Both the position numbers and the translations under genes were made by a program. Shown here in pieces: positions 28,763 to 35,737 of a stretch of DNA of 64,000 nt. This DNA comes from Pyrinomonadaceae bacterium. GTDB lineage: Bacteria > Acidobacteriota > Blastocatellia > Pyrinomonadales > Pyrinomonadaceae. The stretch is from NCBI GenBank assembly GCA_021463165.1, contig JAJTWY010000003.1, forward strand, positions 124,001-188,000. Direction: 5' to 3'. The notes below the pieces were generated by a model, which saw only the letters and a program-made list of their open reading frames with translations, was not told the origin of the DNA and made no database searches. The number at the start of each line of letters is the position of its first letter. Position 1 is the first letter of the stretch.

Positions 28763-29998
28763 TTAGTAGATCATTCTCGTCTTTATCGTTCCCTTGATGT
28801 CCTTCAGGATCTCAAAGGCTTCTTTTGAGAGTGCGGAGTCCATGTCGAGGATAACGTAGCCAATGGTTTCGTTGGTTTTCAGGTACTGGCCGACGATGTT
28901 GATGCCCCGCTTCGACAGGCGTGAATTTATTTCACCGAGGACGCCCGGGACGTTTTCGTGTATATGCAGGATGCGGTGTGTTCCAGCCTGCGGAGGGAGC
29001 GAAACGGGCGGAACCGTGTGCGAGCCTTCGCTGGTCCCGAATTCCAGATATTTGATGAGTTTCGCGGTCACATCGAGGCCAATATTGGCCTGTGCTTCCT
29101 CGGTCGAGCCGCCAATGTGCGGAGTGAGGATGACGTTTGGCAGGTTCTGCAGGACGGTTTCGAAATGGTCGCCGTTCTTTTCCGGTTCGATCGGGAAAAC
29201 ATCGATCGCGGCGCCGGAGAGATGGCCAGCTTCTAAATTTCTTTTCAGCGAATTGAGATCGACTATGTCACCTCGGCTATAATTGATCAAAATGCTCCCC
29301 TTCGGCATCAACGCGAGCTCCGCGTCGTCGATCATTCCGCGCGTGGTGGCGTCGGATGGCACGTGGAGCGTGACGATGTTCGACCGCTCAAGAAGCTCTC
29401 GAAGGTCGCGGACCTGTTTGGCGTTGCCGTGCGGGAGTTTGACCGCCGAGTCGTAGTAAAGGACGTTCATCCCCATCGCCTCGGCCAGATTTGACACCTG
29501 CGAGCCTATATTGCCGTAGCCGATAATCCCGAGGGTTTTGCCGCGAAGCTCGAAACTGCCCGTAGCGTCCTTTAGCCATTCACCCCGATGGGCCGCGGCG
29601 TTCTTGTCGGCGACTTTACGGATCAGCATCACGCAAAGCCCGATCACGAGCTCGGCCACCGAACGTGTGTTCGAATAGGGGGCATTGAAAACCGCTACGC
29701 CTTTCTCGGTCGCCGCCTTCAGATCGACCTGATTCACGCCGATGCAAAAGCATCCGACCGCAAGCAGCTTGTCGGCCGCTTCGATCACGGCCTTTGTTAT
29801 CTGGGTCTTTGACCGAATGCCGATCAGGTGAACGCCTTTCACAGCCTCGATCAGTTGCTCTTCGCTCAAGGCCCCACCGAGCCGTTCGATCTCAAAATAA
29901 CCGCCTGCGTTCAGCTCCGCCACCGCCGAATCCGAAATATTTTCCAGCAGAAGTATCCTGATCTTGGCTCGCGGATATGATGTCAGTGCTGCGCTCAT
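28763..29998 (-). CDS. serA: D-3-phosphoglycerate dehydrogenase with C-terminal ACT domain
   Basis: LLAVGCFCIGVNQVDL..GKTLGIIGYGNIGSQV..NYSRGDIVDL..ILTPHIGGSTEEAQ; start MSAALTSYPRAKIRILLLENIS gives about 411 aa. Confidence 0.93.
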   Translation of the reverse strand: MSAALTSYPRAKIRILLLENISDSAVAELNAGGYFEIERLGGALSEEQLIEAVKGVHLIGIRSKTQITKAVIEAADKLLAVGCFCIGVNQVDLKAATEKGVAVFNAPYSNTRSVAELVIGLCVMLIRKVADKNAAAHRGEWLKDATGSFELRGKTLGIIGYGNIGSQVSNLAEAMGMNVLYYDSAVKLPHGNAKQVRDLRELLERSNIVTLHVPSDATTRGMIDDAELALMPKGSILINYSRGDIVDLNSLKRNLEAGHLSGAAIDVFPIEPEKNGDHFETVLQNLPNVILTPHIGGSTEEAQANIGLDVTAKLIKYLEFGTSEGSHTVPPVSLPPQAGTHRILHIHENVPGVLGEINSRLSKRGINIVGQYLKTNETIGYVILDMDSALSKEAFEILKDIKGTIKTRMIY

Positions 29999-30099
29999 AA
30001 AAAGCGCGATTATAGCAAAAAACGAGAGCCAGCGGTTTTTCGCTTTTCCATCATTGTCGATTAAAATCACCTAAAGTAAGTCGAGCGAGGGAGCTAGGT

Positions 30100-31482: not shown

Positions 31483-31543
31483 TTCCAGAAGATTCTTAGA
31501 GTTGCTGCCCACGGATTACCGAGATTGCGGCTATAATGACAAC

Positions 31544-32416
31544 ATGCAGAGCGATTTCCTGGCTGTTGAAGACCTGCCCGAGTACTCGGTACTTACCGGC
31601 GACTCGATGCGTGTACTTCCGTCACTTCCAGCCGAGTGCATACAGAGTTGTATAACTTCGCCGCCCTATTGGGGATTGCGGGATTACGCACACCCGGACC
31701 AGATTGGGGCAGAGCTCTCACCAGCGGATTATGTCAATAACCTTGTTGCCCTTTTTCAGGAAGTTAGGCGCGTACTTCGTGACGATGGTACGCTCTGGTT
31801 AAATGTGGGCGATGGATATGCTCGCAACGGTGGCACGGGACGGCACGGACCAAATGCGATTGTTGGAAACACAAAGAAGTTGATACAAAAACGAAACTGC
31901 AAGGTGCCCGATGTCTGGGGCCTTAAGGATCGGGATCTAATGGGCCTCCCTTGGCGCGTAGCATTTGCGCTTCAAGAAGATGGATGGTATCTCCGCTCCC
32001 GCATTACATGGGTTAAGAAAACTCCAATGCCCGAAAGTGTAAGTAACAGACCCACGACTTCGACAGAAGAGATATTTCTTTTCGCTAAGAACCAAAAGTA
32101 TTTCTACGATAGGGATGGGTTTCGAGAACCTACAGGGGCCAATTTGCGTAATTTCTGGACGCTAGGGCCGGACTCGAACTCTAATGGTCATCCTGCCGCA
32201 TATCCACGAGAACTTGCTCGACGTTGCATTCTTCTGGGGTCAAAGGCGGGCGACTTGATTCTTGACCCTTTCGCTGGTTCGGGCACAACAGGAATTGCGG
32301 CCAACGAACTAGGTAGACGCGCTATTCTTATCGAACTTAACGAAGACTATGTTAGATCGTGCCGAACCCGCGGAGAAAAGGTGCAAAGAGACCTTTACTC
32401 CCGACAGACTGCTTAA
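31544..32416 (+). CDS. DNA methyltransferase (N4-cytosine/N6-adenine type) of a restriction-modification system
   Basis: Catalytic TSPPYWGLRDY and SAM motif DPFAGSGTTG; convergent with restriction endonuclease. Confidence 0.92.
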   Translation: MQSDFLAVEDLPEYSVLTGDSMRVLPSLPAECIQSCITSPPYWGLRDYAHPDQIGAELSPADYVNNLVALFQEVRRVLRDDGTLWLNVGDGYARNGGTGRHGPNAIVGNTKKLIQKRNCKVPDVWGLKDRDLMGLPWRVAFALQEDGWYLRSRITWVKKTPMPESVSNRPTTSTEEIFLFAKNQKYFYDRDGFREPTGANLRNFWTLGPDSNSNGHPAAYPRELARRCILLGSKAGDLILDPFAGSGTTGIAANELGRRAILIELNEDYVRSCRTRGEKVQRDLYSRQTA

Positions 32417-32417
32417 G

Positions 32418-33290
32418 CTAAATTGCTAGGTCGAGGGGCAAATCACTAATGTCCTTTAGGCGTTTCCCATCGATCATTATCTTCAGAATATCCGACGCAA
32501 CGTCGCTGTCGTAGTCTTCGACAGCGGCGATAAGTTCAGGCAGGGCAAAATGATAAACGCAGTCGATATCGCCGGTCCCCAAGGCGATTGAGGCAATTCT
32601 CGACGGTAGTGGCTCGGCAATAACAGCAACAATATGCGGCAAGTGCCCTTTACGATTTCGCATTAAGTTAAGAGCTTCAGACCTTGCGTTTTGAACTCTA
32701 TCACTCCGAATTGTCCATTTACAAGAAATGCTCGCGTGCAAAAGCGGCGAAGGATTATAGAGCTTTCGAAGACTTGCTCTCGTTGCAATGGTTTGATCAA
32801 CTAGGTTCTTTTCTGAGTTTATGACGTCATCGCGTTCGGGTTCACGCCAAACTACGATATCCGGCGTTATGGTGTAATCACTTCCAAGCGCAGCCGCCAA
32901 ATCCGGATCCCGTTTTGCCGCCATTTCCAAAGCTATGAGGTGCTCATACTGCTCGTACTTTGCGATTTCAGAACGATTTCTTTGTCCGACAAGTTTAATT
33001 CCCCATGAACCGGGTCGCAGATGACCTAGCTGTCGAAAAGTAAGTTCAATGTAGTTCCGACAAACTTCCTCAAATTTGCTTCCAGATGTTTGACCAGCAA
33101 GCCGCATCCCAATTGTTTCAGGGCCAAGTCTGCTAAGAATACCCTTTGCAATTGCCACACTCGCTGCACTATCCTTATCGGCGTTGGTTGGAATTCCCCT
33201 GTCGTCTGACAACAAGACCGTTTCAAGCAGTGTTGCGTGAAAGCCCCGTCGTGCTTTGTCGAACGCCGATTTTGTTGTGCGCTTTTTCAT
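32418..33290 (-). CDS. Type II restriction endonuclease, NgoMIV-like
   Basis: LGSDYTITPDIVVW, LLHASISCKWTIRSDRVQNARSEALNLMRNRKGHLPHIV, IALGTGDIDCVYHFAL, GKRLKDISDLPLDLA closely match recalled R.NgoMIV sequence. Confidence 0.9.
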   Translation of the reverse strand: MKKRTTKSAFDKARRGFHATLLETVLLSDDRGIPTNADKDSAASVAIAKGILSRLGPETIGMRLAGQTSGSKFEEVCRNYIELTFRQLGHLRPGSWGIKLVGQRNRSEIAKYEQYEHLIALEMAAKRDPDLAAALGSDYTITPDIVVWREPERDDVINSEKNLVDQTIATRASLRKLYNPSPLLHASISCKWTIRSDRVQNARSEALNLMRNRKGHLPHIVAVIAEPLPSRIASIALGTGDIDCVYHFALPELIAAVEDYDSDVASDILKIMIDGKRLKDISDLPLDLAI

Positions 33291-33300
33291 AACCTTGGGA

Positions 33301-33540
33301 TCAATAACGGTAGGAGTTTAGGTCGTTTAGTTGCTCAAGCTTATTTCTGAGGAACCAAGAGAGCTTTTCCGCTTTTTTCGCCGACAACTCAATGTGATAA
33401 TGCGTATCCGTATTCTTCATTGAGGGAGTGAAAAGCATTACGAATCCATCCTCCTCATCCCAACCTATGTACAGGTTGTCTCGTTCGGTATCTCTTATAC
33501 TTTCACCCGAACCTCTTCCTCCGATTGGATACTTCAACAT
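33301..33540 (-). CDS. Hypothetical small protein upstream of the restriction endonuclease
   Basis: MLKYPIGGRGSGESIRDTERDNLYIGWDEEDGF; the ORF start at 33570 lies in the lpdA remnant, so ATG 33540 is more likely. Confidence 0.55.
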   Translation of the reverse strand: MLKYPIGGRGSGESIRDTERDNLYIGWDEEDGFVMLFTPSMKNTDTHYHIELSAKKAEKLSWFLRNKLEQLNDLNSYRY

Positions 33541-33547
33541 ATAGGCC

Positions 33548-33634
33548 TTACATATGTATCGTGAGATCATGCACGCCCTCGGCGGCTTCCATTACGGCTT
33601 CGGAGACGGTTGGGTGGGCGTGGATGATGCGGCC
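33548..33634 (-). repeat. Displaced second copy of the lpdA 3' end (29 codons including stop)
   Basis: Encodes GRIIHAHPTVSEAVMEAAEGVHDLTIHM*; 80/87 nt identical to 34310..34396. Confidence 0.95.
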
Positions 33635-33647
33635 GAATAACACCTTG

Positions 33648-33884
33648 CTATAGTCGGTCGAACTCGTCAGGTTCAACGTCGGGAGCCTTGGTGAGCAGTT
33701 CACGCATTCTCTCCCAGCCTTTCCGTTTCATGTGATCTTCAACCGATCTTATAGCGTCCCAGCTCGATAGTTGCCCCGACAATGCAATGGCAAGAAACTG
33801 ATCCAAGGTCATACCTTCCTTTTCCGCGACGCTTTTTGCACGGCGGAGTAGGGATTCGGGTAGATTTGCGGTAATAGTGGTCAT
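33648..33884 (-). CDS. Antitoxin of a PIN-domain toxin-antitoxin pair
   Basis: MTTITANLPESLLRRAKSVAEKEGMTLDQFLAIALSGQ, ribbon-helix-helix-like; 4-nt overlap with the toxin. Confidence 0.82.
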   Translation of the reverse strand: MTTITANLPESLLRRAKSVAEKEGMTLDQFLAIALSGQLSSWDAIRSVEDHMKRKGWERMRELLTKAPDVEPDEFDRL

Positions 33885-34306
33885 TTCTCTTTCATCAACT
33901 CAAGAAAATCTCTTGGCGTTATCAATGTTATGTCAAAATCAGCCGCAGATGCAAAATCTTTTGGATTATACGTCACAATATAACTCGCATTCGACCTGAC
34001 TGCTAGTTCCAAGATAAATGCGTCGTCCGGGGCCACCGCGAGAAGTCTCCAAAGAAAAAATATTTCGTATTCCTTCGCAATCAAGCGTAAACTATCCATT
34101 GCCTCTTCGACTTCTTCATGCGAGATAAACTCGCTCATCTCTGGTCGTTTTAGGACATCTTCGTACTCGAACAGCAAGGGAGTCGAAACAGCGATTTCAA
34201 ATCGTTCGTCGTTGAGACACTCAATCAAATGATTTGCCGCCCCCCGTTTGGAACGAAAGGCGGCAACCAGTACATTTGTATCGATAACGATCTGAATTTT
34301 GGCCAT
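33881..34306 (-). CDS. PIN-domain toxin (COG1569-like)
   Basis: IVIDTNVLVAAFRSKRGAANHLIE..APDDAFILELAVRSNASYIVTYNPKDF. Confidence 0.88.
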   Translation of the reverse strand: MAKIQIVIDTNVLVAAFRSKRGAANHLIECLNDERFEIAVSTPLLFEYEDVLKRPEMSEFISHEEVEEAMDSLRLIAKEYEIFFLWRLLAVAPDDAFILELAVRSNASYIVTYNPKDFASAADFDITLITPRDFLELMKEK

Positions 34307-34309
34307 ACG

Positions 34310-35737
34310 TTACATATGTATCGTCAGATCATGCACCCCTTCCGCGGCTTCCATTACGGATTCGGAGACGGTCGGGTGGGCGTGGATGACGCGGCCTAGT
34401 TCGTCGGCGGTGGTTTCGAGAGCCATGCCGACGCAGGCTTCTGCCAATAATTCCGTTGCGTGGGGGCCGATGATGTGGACGCCGAGGACCTCGTCGTATT
34501 TCTTCTCGGCGACGATCTTGACGAAGCCGTCGGTCTCGCCCAGGATACGTGCCTTACCCGAGGCTGAGAATGGGAATTTGCCAACTTTGACGTCGTAGCC
34601 GGCGGCTTTGGCTTTTTCTTCGGTCAGGCCGACGCTGGCGACCTCAGGGTCGCAGTAGGTGCAGTTCGGTACAAGATTGTGTTTGATAGGCTCGACCTTT
34701 TTCCCTGCGATCTTTTCGACAACGAGAATACCCTCTTTCGATGCGAGGTGCGCGAGTTGTGCGGTCGGGACAACGTCGCCGATCGCGAAAATGCCGGGTT
34801 CGGCAGTTTCGTAAAATTCGTTGACCTCAACGGTGCCGCGATCGGAGATTTTGACCTTAGTATTTTCGAGGCCAAGGCCTTCGAGATACGGCATACGGCC
34901 CACAGCGACGAGCAGCATCTCGGCCTCGAGCGTGACGGTGTCGCCCTTGGCATTTTTGCCGGAGACCTTAACACTCTTCTTGCCTTTTTCCAGTTTGTCG
35001 AGTTTTAGGCCGGTTTCGACTTTGATCCCTTGTTTCTTGAACGCGCGGGCGAGTTCTTTCGACACTTCAGCGTCCTCGAGTGGGACGATGCGGTCGAGCA
35101 GTTCGACCAGTGTCGTCTCGGTACCGAAACGATGATAAACGCTGGCAAACTCCGAACCGACAGCGCCGGAACCCATTACGATCAGAGATTTCGGAACACT
35201 TGTGAGTTCAAGGATGTGGTCAGAATTGACGACCTGCTTGCCGTCCGTCTCAAATCCCGGGATCGGGCGAACTACCGAACCGGTCGCGATGATGATGTTC
35301 TTGGTCGTTATCGTTTCTTTTTTTCCGTCGGCCAAGGCGACCTCGACCCTACCTTTACCCACGATCTTGCCAAAGCCATTGAAGATAGTGGCTTTGTTCT
35401 TTTTCATCAGGTAGGTAACGCCGGCCGAGTTCTTGGCGACGACGTCGGATTTGTATTTTTGGACAGCCGTCCAGTCATAGCTGAGCCCCTCCACCTTGAG
35501 TCCAAAGTTCTCGAAATGCGACGCTTTATCGTAAAGGTGGGCCGCATTCAGCAGAGCTTTCGTCGGGATACATCCGCGGAGTCCGCAGGTGCCGCCAAGC
35601 CGCGCGTCCTTTTCCTTCTCGATGATCGCGACCTTTAGCCCGAGCTGTCCCGCACGCACCGCAGCGACATAGCCGCCGGGGCCCGATCCGATAATTGTTA
35701 CGTCAAACTGTTCTGCCACAAATAGTGTCCTCTGCAA
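34310..35737 (-). CDS. lpdA: Dihydrolipoyl dehydrogenase
   Basis: GSGPGGYVAAVRAGQLG, redox CGLRGCIPTK, HAHPTVSESVMEAAEG; a GTG start at 35719 is also possible. Confidence 0.96.
   Translation of the reverse strand: MQRTLFVAEQFDVTIIGSGPGGYVAAVRAGQLGLKVAIIEKEKDARLGGTCGLRGCIPTKALLNAAHLYDKASHFENFGLKVEGLSYDWTAVQKYKSDVVAKNSAGVTYLMKKNKATIFNGFGKIVGKGRVEVALADGKKETITTKNIIIATGSVVRPIPGFETDGKQVVNSDHILELTSVPKSLIVMGSGAVGSEFASVYHRFGTETTLVELLDRIVPLEDAEVSKELARAFKKQGIKVETGLKLDKLEKGKKSVKVSGKNAKGDTVTLEAEMLLVAVGRMPYLEGLGLENTKVKISDRGTVEVNEFYETAEPGIFAIGDVVPTAQLAHLASKEGILVVEKIAGKKVEPIKHNLVPNCTYCDPEVASVGLTEEKAKAAGYDVKVGKFPFSASGKARILGETDGFVKIVAEKKYDEVLGVHIIGPHATELLAEACVGMALETTADELGRVIHAHPTVSESVMEAAEGVHDLTIHM

Follow-up and report, generated by a model that had tools for sequence, protein, structure and literature searches.

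Behind the dihydrolipoyl dehydrogenase gene lpdA of a Pyrinomonadaceae bacterium lies a small toxin-antitoxin pair, and behind this pair the last codons of lpdA stand a second time. How do small genes come to lie between two ends of one housekeeping gene, at a locus where no integrase is present? This article describes the locus within the window (the whole stretch of 64,000 nucleotides that was analysed), the related loci of other genomes, and the processes by which such an arrangement may have been built. The features concerned are as follows, in window positions.

28763..30070, minus strand: serA-like D-3-phosphoglycerate dehydrogenase, named from sequence; conserved, and marks the far limit of the variable interval; start as annotated too long
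31502..32416, plus strand: N4/N6 DNA methyltransferase, the endonuclease's partner (Pfam PF01555, 3.6e-50; PADLOC MTase_II)
32418..33290, minus strand: NgoMIV-family restriction endonuclease (Pfam PF09015, 9e-117)
33301..33540, minus strand: small ORF (MLKYP...), 79 aa, of no known family; second cassette, its ATG 7 nt past the stop of the distal copy
33548..33638, minus strand: distal copy of the lpdA 3' end, with which cassette 1 closes; homology about 91 nt
33648..33884, minus strand: 78-aa protein paired with the PIN toxin, putative antitoxin by its position and because the two genes occur together in 7 genomes
33881..34306, minus strand: PIN_3 toxin gene, first gene of cassette 1 (Pfam PF13470, 2.7e-17)
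34310..34396, minus strand: proximal copy of the lpdA 3' end; final 29 codons including the stop, direct repeat
34310..35737, minus strand: lpdA, dihydrolipoyl dehydrogenase, 475 aa as listed, TTG start uncertain (Pfam Pyr_redox_2, 7.2e-66; Pyr_redox_dim, 9.3e-40)

The repeated end of lpdA

The two lpdA ends form an 87-nt direct repeat (33548-33634 and 34310-34396) with 92% identity (80/87), both copies being read on the minus strand, as is lpdA itself (34310-35737). Five of the seven differences are synonymous and two are nonsynonymous (V/I and S/A); counted from the stop end the homology reaches about 91 nt, and it breaks off at the TAA. The 675 bp between the copies hold the PIN_3 toxin gene and its 78-aa partner and nothing else. 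The toxin ATG is located 3 nt past the lpdA stop, the partner gene and the end of the toxin gene overlap by 4 nt, and the partner has no match in Pfam. The description of the repeat in the initial annotation of the window was reproduced in full, as was its account of the intervening genes. It had also reported a perfect palindrome over both stop codons; TACATATGTA is indeed found in both window copies but is not conserved across other lpdA ends, and other ends or copies carry CCATATGTAA, ACATATTTAA or ACACATTTGA in its place. The relatives are too distant for comparison with their lpdA ends to polarise which window copy is native.

Distribution of extra lpdA ends

When the final 141 nt of lpdA served as query, several genomes of the same genus proved to have additional lpdA ends, located 480-1000 bp downstream of the gene. 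The locus sample comprised lpdA with up to about 18 kb of downstream sequence from 40 relatives, and 80 more named loci, mostly from Pyrinomonadaceae and otherwise from other Acidobacteriota, came from one collection scan. Of 60 loci, 40 have serA downstream of lpdA and in its orientation, at a distance of about 0 to 9,360 bp (by homology start) and with cargo that differs between loci. Empty or near-empty sites, which the initial annotation had proposed looking for, were found in G026 (L048), L113, L067 and L078.

With a profile of the lpdA end, 15 extra copies were detected within the 139 kb of lpdA-serA interval, each on the same strand as lpdA, against zero matches at >=12 bits in control sequence totalling 1.43 Mb. 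Over 119 genomes of the family, a model built from the final 42 nt of lpdA located extra ends in 12, belonging to two genera (g1, 10; g6, 2); none lies farther than 3.1 kb downstream of lpdA, all share its orientation, and matches away from the locus were single weak ones or a second lpdA. The hosts of the arrays are a group of soil and sludge Acidobacteria. Given the difference in frequency between interval and control, and 12 independent assemblies, chance and assembly error are excluded as the source of the copies, the latter having been raised as a possible flaw when the repeat was first described.

The copies range from 23 to 91 nt in length, none is longer than 91 nt, and all end at the stop codon; their left borders fall into two groups, one at -38 to -41, common to about five unrelated cassettes, and one at -86 to -91. 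These lengths and ends, like the independent assemblies, tell against taking the copies for an assembly artefact or for what is left of a decayed tandem lpdA duplication, a reading for which no supporting point was found and which must be considered extremely improbable; remnants of a full lpdA duplication, a further possibility allowed for at the outset, were not seen. The C-terminus encoded by lpdA is nearly unchanged across all genomes. When 864 kb were scanned for other gene ends with downstream copies, lpdA was the clear case, and the remaining candidates were either no stronger than gene-body controls or paralogue-like.

Several draft contigs end soon behind lpdA (G005 C258, G015 C77, G017 C577, G029 C494 and G033 C72), and arrays are probably undercounted, the repeats apparently breaking the assembly at this point. 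The draft G024 contains two different lpdA ends (G024:C182:142-276 and G024:C199:7310-7447; 90% and 74% to the window), possibly reflecting contamination or a second lpdA.

Cassettes and their cargo

These comparisons show the window to be one case of a wider pattern, in which small cassettes have repeatedly been inserted directly behind lpdA. A cassette consists of one to three genes in 0.3-1.3 kb, in many cases a toxin-antitoxin pair, and finishes with 40-90 nt that repeat the 3' end of lpdA. The units are compact, with a gene start 3-100 nt past the lpdA stop and an lpdA end that usually begins 0-13 nt past the last stop codon of the cassette. Four cassettes, each closed by an lpdA end, make up the array of G012. 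Read outwards from lpdA they carry the PIN pair, a WG-repeat protein, the small MLKYP protein, and a Gp49/HigB-like toxin together with its HTH antitoxin; these units recur elsewhere singly or in other orders. The WG unit stands immediately behind lpdA in G004, the MLKYP unit does so in G021 and G024 and follows the distal copy in the window, and the HigBA unit immediately follows lpdA in G002, G007 and G017, and in G005 it comes after the PIN unit. Homologues of the window PIN toxin (54-79% identity) occur only at lpdA, in G005, G009, G010, G012, G014 and G020. Other cargo flanked by lpdA ends, another expectation of the initial annotation, was also found: closed by, or following, an lpdA end are YefM-YoeB (L124, L115), a TacA-like/GNAT pair (G009), a glyoxalase-like protein (G022) and a 243-aa protein without a Pfam family (G032). 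The type II toxin-antitoxin families recognised are thus PIN_3, YoeB, Gp49/HigB-like with HTH_3, and TacA-like with GNAT.

Homologues of the MLKYP protein are present in 4 of 98 genomes. Because this family was found four times and always directly behind an lpdA end, the small ORF after the distal copy represents a further cassette of the window. The NgoMIV-family endonuclease is further cargo of the lpdA-serA interval that is not bounded by an lpdA end, and no homologue grouped with the window restriction-modification pair in the other sampled lpdA loci. Endonuclease and methyltransferase (window 31502-33290) are in opposite orientation, tail to tail.

Junctions indicate which parts of a cassette move together. 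HigBA units with an lpdA end have identical junction spacing in G002 and G012, whereas those without one (G007, G017) have unrelated 3' flanks, which shows that the lpdA end travels at the 3' side of the cassette. A TAG stop precedes YefM in both genomes that carry it, and likewise WG in both of its genomes, so that the stop codon, too, seems to travel with the cassette.

Origin of the copies and exchange between lineages

Compared with the lpdA of their own genome, 11 copies show synonymous and nonsynonymous differences in a ratio of 33:15; the synonymous share expected without selection is 24%, and that between true lpdA ends is 78-85%. Since the copies diverge mainly at synonymous sites, they derive from functional lpdA alleles, in which most of the divergence arose. 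The proposal that the second window end came from a functional allele gains support from this ratio and from copies that are clearly foreign. The first copy of G012 matches its own lpdA at 30/39 positions, against 37/39 for the lpdA of other species (G004 and G017).

Distal copies in G009 (59/61), G014 (82/89) and the window (80/87) are closest to the host's own lpdA. This is what would be seen if each insertion were illegitimate and the copies by-products without a later role, either through homology-facilitated joining (lpdA as the anchor on one side, a microhomology join inside lpdA on the other) or through insertion with long target duplication, as in restriction-modification units; processes of this type have been described (PMC3240628, PMC3874152). 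The common border sits in GC-rich sequence and restriction-modification cargo is present, both of which fit, but the same cassettes with lpdA ends recur in different orders and genomes, some copies are foreign, and the process would have to be specific to lpdA. Illegitimate insertion is accordingly judged improbable. The units studied by Kobayashi and colleagues resemble the present ones in that defence genes are flanked by a long direct repeat of host sequence; they differ in that lpdA cassettes are recurrent, allele-divergent, modular and bound to one locus.

Gene phylogenies point to exchange. In the lpdA tree G010 and G020 are sisters (support 100/99.9), a grouping that the tree of the PIN interior rejects (p-AU 4e-72), just as lpdA rejects the grouping of the PIN tree (p-AU 7e-6). 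Between the two genomes identity stands at 97-100% across the final 225 nt of lpdA and roughly the initial 75 nt of the PIN gene. It falls to 44-73% within the PIN interior and rises again to 80-89% at the antitoxin end, a succession of high, low and high values which shows that the interior was exchanged between homologous flanks. The lpdA of G014 is native-like up to about -300 (70 native to 9 PIN-clade sites) and PIN-clade-like over its last 300 nt (5 to 9), and is thus mosaic at its 3' end. The conflict between the trees, together with this one mosaic lpdA, shows that cassettes move between lineages. In G032 the distal copy ends TGTGATCG, as does the native lpdA end of its sisters, which places a crossover within the last bases. 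The initial annotation had missed the evidence of homologous exchange, as well as the array nature of the locus, the second cassette in the window and the restriction to the lpdA-serA interval.

Search for a recombinase, an attachment site and a carrier

A scan of all lpdA loci (HMM and phmmer) revealed no tyrosine-recombinase ORF at any of them; the array genomes G014 and G022 have no tyrosine recombinase in common beyond XerC/XerD, and no serine resolvase was found in 8 array genomes. The original statement that no integrase is present therefore holds for recombinases at the locus, and the parallel drawn with integrase-borne elements of the icd type was not borne out, there being no larger version with an integrase at any lpdA locus. 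Phages and viral contigs gave no match to the lpdA end, and the plasmid matches were only true lpdA genes or other weak, unannotated hits. Nearly all relatives possess the DNA-uptake genes ComEC and DprA.

Among the ten same-genus array genomes IntI exceeds the cut-off in one, the window's own, where it lies away from the lpdA locus. IntI was rejected as a cause, since most array genomes are without it and no gene family is common to the lpdA cassettes and its own. The integrase of the window's genome is a true integron integrase (G000:C45:89439-90377, corresponding to L169:9436-10399; 414 bits against a cut-off of 265) with cassettes and attC-like repeats behind it; the gene is also intact in G007, G025 and G035, and broken or partial in G005 (an array genome), G016 and G024. 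Folding of the lpdA copies into attC-like structures was likewise discarded, being no better than that of shuffled sequences (z -1.4 to +0.9), and neither a GTTRRRY-type core nor inverted arms of the tyrosine-recombinase type were seen in the copies. XerCD-dif (pdif) modules are recognised by a dif-like site of 28 bp, in which two 11-bp arms flank a 6-bp centre; the searches brought to light neither such a site nor the dif site of this genus itself.

These results bear upon the proposal that the lpdA end is an attachment site. In this view some site-specific recombinase, its gene lying elsewhere or since lost, would act in trans and join cassettes at the lpdA stop or immediately ahead of it, the cassettes being non-autonomous, like those of integrons or CIMEs. 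The left border at 38-41 nt common to unrelated cassettes, together with their compact format, keeps such a recombinase a serious rival, and the apparent travel of the stop codon, the crossover in the last bases of the G032 copy and the strict locus specificity agree with it. Opposed to it are the missing candidates among tyrosine recombinases, serine resolvases and IntI, the copies that lack a recognisable fold, arms or dif-like site, and the mosaicism of lpdA; we regard it as rather unlikely. A broader formulation, a dedicated Pyrinomonadaceae cassette system that uses the coding 3' end of lpdA as an attachment site in an integron-like manner, without an integron integrase, and is moved by some recombinase or by RecA alone, is put forward tentatively, as conceivable but doubtful.

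Proposed cassette accretion by homologous recombination

The explanation that we favour, with modest confidence, is that the lpdA-serA interval is a cassette-accretion site built by homologous recombination anchored on lpdA. It is preferred because no recombinase, phage or plasmid carrier, attC fold or inverted arms came to light and because uptake genes are near-universal. Its observed basis comprises the cassettes with lpdA ends, the empty sites, the varied orders, the transfer between lineages, the mosaic lpdA and the recombinase-free locus. Incoming DNA would pair with resident lpdA through ordinary homologous recombination, with lpdA as the left arm and a cassette-borne lpdA end as the right arm, or with both as one arm of a circle. 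The outcome would be a new cassette directly behind lpdA, with nothing deleted, lpdA intact and the displaced lpdA end left as a border mark; by the same route cassettes could be swapped, reordered or lost. The scheme would begin from cassettes that already bear an lpdA end. Dependence on RecA, uptake by transformation and circular intermediates would be expected, and the cassettes are probably expressed with the lpdA-serA transcript. Against this explanation stand the left borders, whose two clusters are more orderly than random breakpoints, the compactness of the cassettes, the prominence of lpdA among the gene ends scanned, and the inefficiency that homologous recombination would have over 40 nt at 80-95% identity.

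Relation to known systems

No account of lpdA-linked cassette arrays was found in the open-access literature, subscription papers being largely outside that scope. The arrays that arise by displacement of rhs and mafB tips (PMC2935791, PMC4287609) are alike in that a gene is followed by arrays of its variable-length 3' fragments and in their toxin cargo, and such fragments do lie between the cargo units behind lpdA. They are unlike in that the gene repeated here is metabolic and its product unchanged, lpdA having received no new C-terminus, and the cargo consists of complete toxin-antitoxin and other genes instead of new C-terminal domains. For rhs, homologous recombination has been proposed, with circular intermediates that carry a core fragment of variable length (PMC2935791). 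Minimal mobile elements of Neisseria (cited in PMC3388099) likewise comprise differing genes between two conserved neighbours (here lpdA and serA) and are exchanged by homologous recombination; differing cargo between the same genes is seen at lpdA as well, and flank exchange is supported by the sequence comparisons. These elements replace each other, whereas lpdA cassettes accumulate because each brings a gene end.

Integron arrays share with the lpdA arrays compact, site-closed genes behind one point, many toxin-antitoxin pairs and a varying order. Of the features that define integrons and CALINs, namely an IntI integrase and attC sites with core boxes and a folded bottom strand, the lpdA arrays display neither: the site is a coding end, the locus has no integrase, and IntI is absent from most array genomes. 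CIMEs and genomic islands at the 3' ends of icd, guaA and fda also duplicate the gene end at the far border and accrete in tandem, and at lpdA the far-border duplication likewise leaves the gene intact; their difference from lpdA cassettes is that the latter are small units of few genes without a detected att-type site, or an integrase in the element or a larger relative. By analogy, lpdA arrays would work like rhs/maf tip displacement combined with minimal mobile elements while looking like an integron array.

The arrangement implies that toxin-antitoxin and other small genes can gather and spread at one chromosomal point by means of a housekeeping-gene fragment as a common handle, with no recombinase of their own having been found. 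If recombination at gene ends suffices, arrays could be seeded by the end of any conserved gene, and cargo hotspots free of integrases would find their explanation; should a recombinase prove necessary, a new integron-like system awaits identification. Either way, the lpdA-serA interval offers a defined site for testing recombination against a recombinase.

Other sequences behind lpdA

Heptamer-like repeats (GGTCAGT/GTTGTCAGT) occur just behind the lpdA stop in L040, L048, L061, L106 and L107; as an insertion target they were rejected, being present in just 4 of 60 loci. Genes of the DUF4160 and DUF2442 families recur behind lpdA, within the lpdA-serA interval, in L042, L043, L050, L052, L054, L058 and L074, and probably constitute another cassette whose lpdA end is lost. 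Several of them carry a common palindrome-like leader, AAACCTAAC...GGTTA.
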